Shown piece by piece: positions 6,349 through 30,156 of a stretch of DNA of 64,000 nucleotides. The notes under the pieces were generated by a model that was not told the DNA's origin, did no database searches, and saw only the letters and a program-made list of their open reading frames with translations. How positions within the stretch are numbered: the stretch's first letter is position 1; the number at the start of each line of letters is the position of its first letter. Source of the DNA: Streptomyces sp. man185 (GTDB lineage Bacteria; Actinomycetota; Actinomycetes; Streptomycetales; Streptomycetaceae); assembly GCA_002551355.1 (NCBI GenBank), contig NTHE01000013.1, positions 1 to 64,000 of the forward strand, written 5' to 3'. The translations under genes were made by a program, and so were the position numbers.

Positions 6349-6732
6349 GACGGCGCTCTCCTCCCTGTCGGGCGTTGCGACGGTCGCGCGCTCGGGGTGT
6401 GAGAGGCGCCGCCGGGTGATCTCCCGGAAGAGACCCGGGAAAGACAGACTGCCCAGCCGATCCTGCCCTCCCGGGTCACGGGTGGCGCGGTCATCGGCTG
6501 TGGCGGGTTGAGTATGCCCGATGGGAAGCCTTCCGTCACGGGGGCAACGGGCAGGTCGGAGGCCTGAAGAGGCCGAGAACGATCAGTGAATTGGTCCGAA
6601 CCATTGACCCAACTGGTCTAGTCCTTCTACGGTTCCACTCAACGCCTACCGCGTTCATGTCAAACCGGGCGCAGTCGCCCGGAGTTCGGCCAGCACCCCC
6701 CACGCACCAGCCCTCCCCCACGAGGAGCCACG
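6349..6732. other. Divergent promoter region, acdH / chitinase
   Basis: A 384-bp gene-free stretch. The chitinase side holds the operator-promoter at 6592-6633. The acdH side shows no recognisable box. Confidence 0.6.
6592..6633 (+). promoter_or_regulatory. Chitinase promoter with paired DasR-type boxes
   Basis: Two 12-bp boxes, TGGTCCGAACCA (6592-6603) and TGGTCTAGTCCT (6614-6625), start 22 bp apart and flank a -35 TTGACC (6604-6609). A -10 TACGGT (6628-6633) follows at 18-bp spacing. Each box with its flanks matches the 16-bp DasR responsive element at about 12 positions. In Streptomyces, chitinase genes carry such direct repeats and answer to DasR and chitin/GlcNAc signals. Binding here is inferred. 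Confidence 0.8.
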
Positions 6733-13290: not shown

Positions 13291-13489
13291 GGTCGTGACC
13301 CCCGGTCGGATGCGGAAGGTGGTCTTGCGGATGCCGTTCGGTGCGCCAACTATCCCGGTTCCGGGGCGGATCGGGCCAGCGGTTCGGCAGCCGCCGCCGG
13401 ACCAATATGGGTCTGGACCACTGGCGTGACCTGCGGTGGCACGAGCCACTCCCCGAGGGCGGCCCCGTGCCGGAACGTACCCTGGGGCC

Positions 13490-25251: not shown

Positions 25252-25390
25252 TGCTACTGGTACGGAACCAGTCTGCCACGGACGCCTCTCGGCCATGCGA
25301 GTGAGCACTGTGGGCTGGGTCACAGGAGGCATGGCGCATTCCTGCCGGGACGAACGCGACAACGTAGTCATTCACGAAGTCGAGGCTTAA

Positions 25391-25432
25391 AGGTCCATAC
25401 CTATTGACGCACTGGTCTAGTCCTCTTAATCT
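25391..25432 (+). promoter_or_regulatory. Second chitinase promoter with paired boxes
   Basis: Boxes AGGTCCATACCT (25391-25402) and TGGTCTAGTCCT (25413-25424) start 22 bp apart around a -35 TTGACG (25404-25409). A -10 TAATCT lies at 25427-25432 with 17-bp spacing. The downstream box is identical to that of the 6733 chitinase. DasR-type control is inferred. Confidence 0.8.
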
Positions 25433-25543: not shown

Positions 25544-27901
25544 ATGCTGTCCCCCACCCGAGCGAGAGCCACGCTCCTCGCCGCCGGCGCCGCCGTCGCC
25601 GGACTGCTGCTGAGCTCCCTCGCCGCCACCCCTTCGGCGGCCGCCACCGACCACGAGTCATGTCGCCCGGACGGGCTGTACAAGACCCCCGGTGTCACCA
25701 CCCCCTACTGCACCGTCTACGACGCCGACGGACGCGAGAAGATGGGCGCCGACCACAAACGGCGCGTGATCGGCTACTTCACCAACTGGCGTACCGGCAA
25801 GGACGGCAAGGACGCCTACCTGGTCCCGGACATCCCGTGGGACAAGGTCACGCACCTCAACTACGCCTTCGCGCACGTGGATGGCTCCAACAAGCTCTCG
25901 GTCGGCCCGGACAGCGCCGACAACGCCTCCACGGGGATGACCTGGCCCGGTGTCGCAGGCGCGGAGATGGACCCGGCGCTCCCCTACAAGGGGCACTTCA
26001 ACCTGCTGACGAAGTACAAGAAGCAGCACCCGAACGTGAAGACCCTGGTCTCCGTGGGCGGTTGGGCCGAGACGGGCGGCTACTTCGGCCCCGACGGCAA
26101 GCGCGTCGACTCGGGCGGCTTCTACTCGATGGCGACCAACGCCGACGGGTCGGTCAACCAGGCGGGCATCAACACCTTCGCCGACTCGGCCGTCGCCTTC
26201 ATCAAGAAGTACGGCTTCAACGGCGTCGACATCGACTACGAGTACGCGACCACGATGAAGGACGCGGGCAACCCGCTGGACCACACGCTGGCCAACGGCC
26301 GCCGCGCGGGCCTGGTCAAGGGCTACGACGCCCTGATGAAGACGCTGCGCGAGAAGCTCGACCGCGCGGGCGAGACCGACGGCAAGCACTACCTGCTGAC
26401 CGTCGCCGCCCCCTCCTCCGGCTACCTCCTGCGGGGCATGGAGACGTACCAGATGCAGAAGTACCTGGACTACGTCAACATCATGTCCTACGACCTGCAC
26501 GGCGCCTGGAACGAGTACGTCGGGCCCAACGCCTCGCTGTTCGACGACGGCAAGGACAACGAGCTGGCGCAGGCGGGCGTCTACACCACCTCGCAGTACG
26601 GCGGCCTCGGCTACCTCAACACCGACTGGGCCTACCACTACTTCCGCGGCTCGATGCCGGCCGGCCGGATCAACATCGGCCTGCCCTACTACACCCGCGG
26701 CTTCAAGAACGTGCAGGGCGGCACCGACGGACTGTGGGGCAAGGCGGCCACCACCGACTGCCCGGCGGGCGCGGGGCTGACCAAGTGCGGTGACGGCGCG
26801 GTCGGGATCGACAACCTGTGGCACGACAAGGACACCAACGGCAGGGAATCGCCTGCCGGTTCCAACCCGATGTGGCACGCGAAGAACCTGGAGAAGGGCA
26901 TCGTCGGGGACTACGTCACCGACTACGGCTTCCCCGCGAACACCCAGCTGACCGGCACGTACGCCCGTAGGTACGACTCCACGCTGGTCGCTCCGTGGCT
27001 GTGGAACGCCCAGAAGAAGGTGTTCCTGTCCACCGAGGACGAGCAGTCGGTGAAGGCCAAGGCCGACTACGTCGTGGACCAGGGCATCGGCGGCACGATG
27101 ATCTGGGAGCTGGCGGGCGACTACCGGTGGAACGCGGCCAAGGGCCAGTACGAGACCGGCTCGACGCTGACCACCGCGATGTACGACGCGTTCAAGTCGG
27201 CCACCCCGTACGGCGCGAAGCGCGCCACGACCGCCCTGCCGACCGAGGCGCTCAACATCGACGTCTCCTTCGGGCAGTTCCCGCTGGGCGACTCCAACTA
27301 CCCGATCAGCCCCAAGCTGAAGATCACCAACCGGACCCAGGCCACGCTGCCCGGCGGTACGGAGTTCCAGTTCGACTACTCCACCTCCGCCCCGGCCAAC
27401 GCCAAGGACCAGTCCGGCTTCGGCACGACGATCATCCGCAGCGACCACACGGCGGCCAACAACATCGGCGGCCTCAAGGGCGACTACAACCGCGTCTCGC
27501 TGAAGCTCCCGGCCTGGCAGAGCCTGGCCCCCGGCGCCTCGGTGGAGCTGGACTTCGTCTACTACCTGCCCACCTCCACCCCGTCGAACTGGACGGTGAC
27601 CTTCGGCGGGAAGTCCTACTCCCTCGCCGGTGACCTGGCCCGCGGCACCACCGTCGTCGAGCCCGGCACCGGGACCAATCCCACGCCGACCCCGACGCCG
27701 ACCGGGCCCACGCCCACCCCGTCCCCGACCCAGCCGGGCGGCAGCTGCTCGGCCCCGGCGTGGAACGCGGCCACCGAGTACGGCAGCGGCTCCACCGTCA
27801 GCCAGGACGGCCGTCAGTGGAAGGCCTCCTGGTGGACGAAGGGCGAGAAGCCCGGCACCACCGGTGAGTGGGGTGTCTGGAAGGACCTCGGGGCCTGCTG
27901 A
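25544..27901 (+). CDS. Multidomain secreted GH18 chitinase
   Basis: A 785-residue exported chitinase. Signal peptide about 1-34 ending in ATPSAAA. The long GH18 barrel starts at RVIGYFTNW (about residue 77); [10 protein letters not shown] is the SxGG strand and GVDIDYE (227-233) puts the catalytic Glu at 233. Large insertions near 290-480 suggest a processive ChiA/ChiI-like cleft. A beta-sandwich domain (about 565-705) is followed by a Thr/Pro linker (about 708-733) and a C-terminal CBM5/12 chitin-binding module with paired Trp ([23 protein letters not shown]). The ATG at 25544 follows AGGAGG by 9 nt. From gene order it resembles S. coelicolor SCO1444. Confidence 0.9.
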
Positions 27902-28807: not shown

Positions 28808-29998
28808 TCAGCCCTCCGGGGCGAACAGCGCGTCCTGCGCCGCGTCCCGGGCGGTGATCAGCGCACCGCGCAGCACGGCCCCGTCGCCCAGCGAACCGGC
28901 GCGGACCTCCGTGCGCAGGGGCGACATCGTGGCCAGCCGTTCCTCGACCCGGGCGGCGAGCGCGGCACCGCCCGCATGGCCGACGGCCCCCGCGAGCAGG
29001 ACGCAGCCGGGGTCGAGCACCGAGACGACGGCGGCGGCGCCGAGGGCGAGACGGTCGGCCACGTCCTTCAGGAAGGGCTCGCCCGCCTCCCCCGCCTCCA
29101 GAGCGGCCCGCACCGCGTCCACGGCGGCCGCCTCCTCGCCGCCCTCCGCCACCGCGCCGAGGTCCACGAGTCCGTGCGCGGCGGCGAGTTCGCACAGCGC
29201 GACCGAGCCCGCCAGGGAGTGGAAACCGCCCTCGCAGTTGACCGCCGATGGCAGCCCGCTCACCCCGGGGACGGGCAGGAAGCCGATCTCTCCCGCGCCA
29301 CCGGACGCCCCCTGACGCAGCTTGCCGTCCAGCATCACGGCGGCCCCGATTCCCAGGCCGAGCCAGAGGAGGACGAAGGTCTCCCGGTCGCGGGCGGCAC
29401 CGTCCCGGTGTTCCGCGACGGCCGCGAGGTTGGTCTCGTTCTCCACCAGGACGGTGGCGGGAAGCCGCCGCTGGAGCTCCCGGACCAGGCCCCGGTGCCA
29501 GGCGGGCAGGCCGGAGCTGTCGCGCAGTTCGCCGGTGGCGGGGTCGATCAGCCCCGGCGCGCCGACCCCGACGCTGTGCAGGGGTACCGCCCCGGCGGCG
29601 CGGGCGGCGCGCTCCAGGAGGGCGGCTGCCCGCTCGACGGCGGGGTCGGTGCGGGTGTCGCTGCCGATGGGCAGCGTGTCCTCGGCGAGCGTGGCCCCCA
29701 GCAGGTCGGCGACGACCACGCTGACGCTGCCGAGGCGCACGTCGAGGGCGGCGAGATGGGCCCGGTCGGCGACGATCCCGTACAGCTTGGCGTTGGGCCC
29801 GCGACGGACGGCTCCGGACTCGCCGACGACCTGGATCAGGCCGGCGCTCCGGAGCCGTTCGACGAGGTCGGCGACGGTGGGCCGGGAGAGTCCGGTCAGC
29901 GTCTTGAGCTGGGTGGCCGTCAGTGGGCCGTCCTGCTGGAGCAGTCGCAGGGCGAGCCGGTCGTTGATGGCCCGAGCCGTGCTCGGGGATGCGGGCAT
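28808..29998 (-). CDS. ROK family transcriptional regulator
   Basis: A 396-residue ROK (repressor, ORF, kinase) protein. The N-terminal winged HTH (about residues 8-60: TATQLKTLTGLSRPTVADLV) is followed by an actin-like sugar-kinase fold with DVRLGSVSVVVADL and SVGVGAPGLID. The usual zinc motif CxCGxxGCxE is degenerate (VNCEGGFHS, with one Cys), and the phosphate-binding motif lacks typical kinase residues, so it is probably a pure regulator. ATG at 29996-29998 with AAGGA upstream. It diverges from an MFS gene across a dyad operator, so it likely represses that gene and itself in answer to a sugar. Confidence 0.87.
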   Translation of the reverse strand: MPASPSTARAINDRLALRLLQQDGPLTATQLKTLTGLSRPTVADLVERLRSAGLIQVVGESGAVRRGPNAKLYGIVADRAHLAALDVRLGSVSVVVADLLGATLAEDTLPIGSDTRTDPAVERAAALLERAARAAGAVPLHSVGVGAPGLIDPATGELRDSSGLPAWHRGLVRELQRRLPATVLVENETNLAAVAEHRDGAARDRETFVLLWLGLGIGAAVMLDGKLRQGASGGAGEIGFLPVPGVSGLPSAVNCEGGFHSLAGSVALCELAAAHGLVDLGAVAEGGEEAAAVDAVRAALEAGEAGEPFLKDVADRLALGAAAVVSVLDPGCVLLAGAVGHAGGAALAARVEERLATMSPLRTEVRAGSLGDGAVLRGALITARDAAQDALFAPEG

Positions 29999-30059
29999 AC
30001 CGGGATCCTTCCAGATCGTCGCCCCGCCGCCTTCCGGGGCCGCGAAGTATCCACTATTT

Positions 30060-30078
30060 ATCAGGCAGGGTTCCTGAT
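30060..30078. promoter_or_regulatory. Dyad operator between ROK and MFS genes
   Basis: ATCAGG (30060-30065) and CCTGAT (30073-30078) form an inverted repeat with 7-bp spacing, inside the only AT-rich patch (30052-30085) of the divergent region. It is a likely target of the ROK protein. Flanking ACTATTT and AGTTTA may supply -10 elements in both directions. Confidence 0.6.
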
Positions 30079-30156
30079 AGTTTACGCCACGCATCGTCGC
30101 GCGGGAGCGCCGGGACGGCCGGCATCCGAGGATTCCCAGGGGAGGGACACGACGGC

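Follow-up and report, generated by a model that had tools for sequence, protein, structure and literature searches.

The promoters of two GH18 chitinase genes, one of ChiD type and one of ChiI type, lying in the 64-kb window of Streptomyces DNA (the whole stretch that was analysed), very probably carry dual DasR operators (dre pairs) set into sigma-70-type promoters. The operators are predicted here, and DasR binding to the same boxes is known from S. coelicolor. We take the two-turn spacing between the boxes of a pair to result from the anchoring of each box to a promoter element and not from a box-to-box ruler.

Organization of the chiD and chiI promoters

The features of both promoters and of their surroundings were listed in Table 1. 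Two 12-bp dre-type boxes with starts 22 bp apart were found at 6592-6633 and again at 25391-25432, the downstream box is identical in the two promoters, and both precede chitinase genes, all as the original prediction had stated; a GH18 domain was detected in the product of each downstream gene. Both pairs thus stand where dre sites are expected, upstream of chitin/GlcNAc genes. The -35 had been placed exactly between the boxes; TTGAC does sit there, but it is not centred, being 0 bp (chiD) or 1 bp (chiI) from box 1, with box 2 following after 4 bp (chiD) or 3 bp (chiI). Since these gaps differ, the register of the two promoters is off by 1 bp, with a -35/-10 spacer of 18 bp in one and 17 bp in the other, and the gap and spacer figures recur in most orthologs. 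The predicted position of the chiD -10 is backed by its distance from box 2, which is always 2 bp in the majority of chiD orthologs.

Table 1. Positions of promoter elements, genes and neighbouring features in the 64-kb window. Scores are for 16-mers against the leave-out dre matrix.
Feature	Positions	Strand	Remarks
Upstream dre box (box 1), chiD-type promoter, TGGTCCGAACCA	6592..6603	.	16-mer at 6590 scores 17.3
-35 hexamer TTGACC, chiD-type promoter	6604..6609	+	Gap to box 1 of 0 bp
Downstream dre box (box 2), chiD-type promoter, TGGTCTAGTCCT	6614..6625	.	Inside the -35/-10 spacer; 16-mer at 6612 scores 18.6
Probable -10 hexamer TACGGT, chiD-type promoter	6628..6633	+	18-bp spacer; 2 bp after box 2
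Secreted GH18 chitinase, ChiD-type, 424 aa	6733..8007	+	PF00704, E 5.3e-73
Strong dre-type box, AGTGGTCCAGACCCAT	13407-13422	-	Upstream of C39-like peptidase gene (ORF from 11908, - strand)
FMN riboswitch RF00050	25123-25253	-	99.3 bits
Upstream dre box (box 1), chiI-type promoter, AGGTCCATACCT	25391..25402	.	16-mer at 25389 scores 19.2
-35 hexamer TTGACG, chiI-type promoter	25404..25409	+	Gap to box 1 of 1 bp
Downstream dre box (box 2), chiI-type promoter, TGGTCTAGTCCT	25413..25424	.	3 bp after the -35
Probable -10 hexamer TAATCT, chiI-type promoter	25427..25432	+	17-bp spacer; 2 bp after box 2
GH18 chitinase, ChiI-type, 785 aa, ChiC-type domain	25544..27901	+	CBM5/12 match weak, below the curated cut-off
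ROK-family protein with winged-helix domain	28808-30094	-	One gene past chiI
Streptomyces-metK RNA RF03063	51896-52013	-	127.5 bits

The ChiD-type and ChiI-type proteins share 26% identity over the common domain, and the promoter flanks fail to align. A recent duplication of gene plus promoter was therefore ruled out. Acyl-CoA dehydrogenase, PepSY protein, riboflavin genes and NAD-binding protein are the direct neighbours of the two genes, and the ORF lists around both showed no two-component system beside either gene. The ROK-family protein past chiI is a candidate sugar regulator, the FMN riboswitch adjoins the chiI promoter and precedes the riboflavin genes, which are on the - strand, and a Streptomyces-metK RNA was also recorded in the window.

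The match to dre in both promoters is above chance. A matrix was built from the S. coelicolor sites given in PMC4398421 with the chiD and chiI entries excluded (leave-out matrix), and because it was symmetrised, a one-strand scan serves both strands. The four chiD and chiI boxes are the top four positions of the window (17.3-20.7), followed by a fifth at 13407 (17.0) and a sixth at 11.5, and by this matrix all four agree with the palindromic 16-bp dre consensus. With the full matrix, 5.5 sites per Mb scoring at least 12 were found in 2 Mb of order-1 random sequence. A plain search allowing three mismatches gave 152 matches against 74.5 expected by shuffling, which was too loose, and the matrix was used instead. 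The fifth-ranked position is the third strong dre-type site of the window; 27 of the 30 genus loci examined for this C39-peptidase gene have a related box, after which ATATTGG usually follows, and ACCAATATTGGT then makes a palindrome of its own.

Searching the 8.07-Mb genome with a generic two-box pattern gave 10 forward and 9 reverse matches, against one on each strand for a reversed control pattern. Further matches lie at chiC, another GH18 gene, a GH19 chitinase gene and a PTS permease gene, and the chiC match adjoins a response-regulator gene. The flanking ORFs of the 19 pattern matches were listed, and five places or arrays among them (C104, C111 twice, C115:157893 and a tandem repeat on C159) appear unlike chitin promoters. 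The last of these (L011-L013, G000:C159:87472-87544) consists of tandem 21-bp repeats with GGTCCGGACC, which match the dre pair pattern and are minisatellite-like. Elsewhere in the genome (L153, G000:C148:110822), TGGTCTAGTCCA stands upstream of a gene for a putative chitin-binding LPMO, recognized by eye from its HGYI start.

Relation to known DasR operators

A DasR ortholog is encoded in this genome, as a UTRA protein (G000:C99) gives a full-length match to S. coelicolor DasR (9i0v, 4zs8) with E 1e-144. The dual dre operators of chiD and chiI are already known from S. coelicolor, where Table 1 of PMC4398421 lists actggtctagtcctcc at -96 and aatggtccgaaccatt at -118 for chiD and actggtctagtcctct at -53 and attggtccatacctat at -75 for chiI; the upstream chiD box of the window, TGGTCCGAACCA, is among those listed for chiD. 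According to the same source, DasR binding to these boxes was found by EMSA and ChIP-chip signals were obtained, which, together with the dre matches found here, bears out the earlier designation of the operators as DasR-type. The pairs of S. coelicolor chiD (SCO1429) and chiI (SCO1444), as tabulated, agree with ours in box spelling (except at the first base of box 1 in chiI), in the 22-bp spacing and in the genes concerned, and differ in the species and in the distance to the start codon. From operators, domains and order we infer that the two genes are orthologous to S. coelicolor chiD and chiI; judged by chiI identity, this genome comes closest to the S. griseus/globisporus/anulatus group. 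Besides chiD and chiI, the main text of PMC4398421, the DasR paper, showed no SCO142x-144x entries.

Both promoters also have the make-up of direct-repeat chitinase promoters, with two repeats of 12 bp that overlap the -35 or lie on either side of it. The chitinase promoter repeats of Delic and of Ni and Westpheling are reportedly 12 bp long as well. As summarized in the review PMC6097792, short direct repeats occur in chitinase promoters and mutations in them led to deregulated chitinase (Delic 1992; Ni and Westpheling 1997), and the short repeats of both promoters here resemble those described in that summary.

On the proposed mechanism, a DasR dimer on box 1 would abut the -35 on its upstream side, another dimer on box 2 would fill the -35/-10 spacer, and together they would cover the region required by polymerase. 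We infer that polymerase blocking is most likely the mechanism. When inducer is absent, DasR would hold the chitinase gene down; chitin products would then shift the sugar-phosphate pool, DasR occupancy would drop or be overridden, and induction would follow. Repression at the -35, as originally proposed, is favoured by the positions of the boxes, but simple repression is incomplete, as the 2015 DasR paper describes chi transcription without notable change in a dasR mutant when chitin is absent, and other inputs have been proposed. In one paper DasR is cited as required for maximal chi expression, and a two-component system is one further input at chiC.

Conservation of the two boxes across the genus

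A genus sample of 71 genomes supplied 30 chiI, 46 chiD-group and 44 chiC loci, and a second set held 80 named chiI loci. Among the 46 chiD-group loci, four (L101-L104) resemble chiC in boxes and register and were excluded from the chiD parsimony; their chiC assignment is also backed by an adjacent chiC-type gene in L102 and L104, and comes from the promoter alone in L101 and L103. The GH19 sample comprised 30 loci among the matches listed, nearly all top-ranked, in which paralogs may be mixed. Changes in each box were counted by Fitch parsimony on gene trees.

The downstream box appears to be constrained beyond what base reading by DasR would demand, as judged from sequence comparison. In chiI (79 loci, L295 being excluded from the 80 named loci because its pair is absent) 18 changes were counted in box 1 and none in box 2, the flank upstream having 28 per column, and box 2 reads TGGTCTAGTCCT in all 79 promoters with a pair (80 examined). 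The counts for box 1 and box 2 were 17 and 1 in chiC (44 loci) and 14 and 6 in chiD (29 of the 30 loci with coding sequence that were drawn on), and the last base accounts for four of these six. One-sided sign tests, which treat changes as independent and were picked after the pattern had been seen, gave 4e-6 for chiI, 7e-5 for chiC and 0.06 for chiD. In chiC, moreover, the centre of box 1 is CA in 21, TG in 22 and TA in one of the 44 loci, while the centre of box 2 is CA in all 44. As CA and TG are one step read on opposite strands, the flip in box 1 is compatible with a two-fold symmetric dimer. Among known systems, the Bacillus NagR operator (GntR/HutC family) is one of the closest; in the part of PMC4333415 consulted, it has GGT...ACC half-sites with two arginines per half-site, like dre, although the crystallised operators are single sites and those here are paired boxes. 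In the NagR-DNA crystal described there, G-7, G-5 and G-4 are the only bases contacted, and the protein reaches the centre via the backbone alone. In the single-box C39-peptidase promoter of the window the centre varies across 27 loci. The locked box 2 of chiC, the NagR contacts and this varying centre together point to the additional constraint, and it is not obvious how a symmetric DasR dimer would account for a box 2 that is both frozen and orientation-locked at its centre.

These same observations (the unequal counts in the three GH18 families, the CA of chiC box 2 beside a flipping box 1, the few bases read by NagR in the consulted text, and the varying single-box centre) make it possible, if only tentatively, that box 2 serves a second, asymmetric reader besides DasR, which could be a contact of polymerase with DasR, a further regulator or an oriented multi-dimer complex. 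Several points weigh against such a reader. The part of the review PMC6097792 that was consulted names no other protein known to bind the repeats specifically; GH19 promoters (25 of the 30 loci among the matches listed) lack the asymmetry, with 13 changes in box 1 and 20 in box 2 (sign test 0.15 in the opposite direction); the chiI core promoter is conserved as a whole, with 5.0 changes per column downstream of box 2 against 12.0 in the upstream flank; stronger selection on one dominant high-affinity DasR site could mimic the pattern; and the test was chosen after the data had been seen. The narrower proposal that GH18 box 2 is a composite site for DasR and an orientation-sensitive reader, which would explain a frozen box 2 next to a drifting and flipping box 1, is in our opinion somewhat more doubtful still.

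Box spacing in chitinase promoters

The original prediction held that the strict geometry implies a need for helical phasing. In the genus sample a pair was found in 29 of 30 chiI promoters (28 at 22 bp, one at 21), in 45 of 46 chiD-group promoters (26 at 22 bp, 19 at 21; 25 and 16, with one promoter lacking a pair, when L101-L104 are set aside) and in all 44 chiC promoters (42 at 21 bp, one at 22, one at 19). Among the named chiI loci 79 of 80 have a pair, 76 at 22 bp and three at 23. Every pair found has TTGAC between its boxes, including all 45 chiD-group pairs from the 46 promoters.

The spacing mostly tracks the distance between the promoter elements. In nearly all chiD orthologs box 1 is 0 bp from the -35 and box 2 is 2 bp from the -10, and a box spacing of 22 goes with a -35/-10 spacer of 18, and 21 with 17; since the -10 hexamers were chosen by a simple score, the gaps to the -10 are approximate. 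Two chiD loci combine 22 with a spacer of 17, the -10 being picked 1 bp nearer, and two of the chiC-like loci L101-L104 score 21 with 18. The three named chiI cases at 23 bp have a spacer of 18, as do 11 of the 76 at 22 bp, with the -10 picked 1 bp further on, and the sole 22-bp chiC case also has 18. In the remaining exceptions, the chiI promoter at 21 and the chiC promoter at 19, the change is located between box 1 and the -35. As the gaps between box and promoter element are near constant and the spacing follows the spacer, the boxes follow the promoter elements and not each other.

GH19 chitinase promoters hold the same sandwich at 16 bp in 18 and at 17 bp in four of the 30 loci among the matches listed, the others being at 23, 33 and 40 bp in three and without a pair in five; a 16-bp spacing puts the boxes roughly on opposite faces of the DNA. 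The GH19 chitinase promoter of this genome (L003, G000:C80:67291-70316) likewise has TTGAC sandwiched by two dre boxes, as in chiD and chiI, and differs in its 16-bp spacing, where TTGACA takes up the whole gap. Three boxes, at 0, 15 and 35, were found in a sister genus. The GH19 spacing and this triple indicate that a two-turn ruler is no requirement for such operators.

Cooperative binding of two DasR dimers on one DNA face, with 21-22 bp (two turns) selected for phasing, is therefore unlikely. The GH18 families alone would fit a two-turn ruler, as 117 of the 120 promoters in the genus sample are at 21 or 22 bp and the spacing of chiI, chiD and chiC is narrow within each family and never near 16, but the shifts are uncompensated (chiD 21/22 and chiI 22/23 track the promoter spacer), 22 of the 30 GH19 promoters among the matches listed are at 16-17 bp, and the sister genus has its triple. 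Whole turns kept independently of promoter spacing, as expected of a phased operator pair, were not found, and helical phasing as a requirement was rejected. Very unlikely, finally, is the view that the shared 12-mer TGGTCTAGTCCT is a functionally unconstrained trace of a promoter copied between neighbouring genes, which is suggested by the 19 kb between chiD and chiI here, their closeness in several genomes and the sharing of box 2 by chiD and chiI even though the ChiD protein is nearer to ChiC (76% identity) than to ChiI (26%), but which is opposed by identity that ends at the box, by unalignable flanks and a register off by 1 bp, and by a box frozen genus-wide in chiD and chiI beside an upstream flank with about 12 changes per column, so that an ancient copy since held by selection would be needed.

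Implications for chitinase regulation

Taken as dre pairs anchored to their promoters, the two elements confirm for a further Streptomyces an operator type that is already well studied and add a comparative rule, namely that the boxes are anchored to the -35 and the -10 and not to each other. Our literature search found no description of the anchoring or of the frozen box 2, which is weak evidence of absence as the search was limited and most subscription papers fell outside it; we regard the frozen downstream box as a modest new lead. The frozen, orientation-locked box 2 is an anomaly that bears on why DasR occupancy alone fails to set chitinase expression, and if a composite box 2 were true, its second input might supply the chitin-specific signal, so far missing, by which DasR is overridden.
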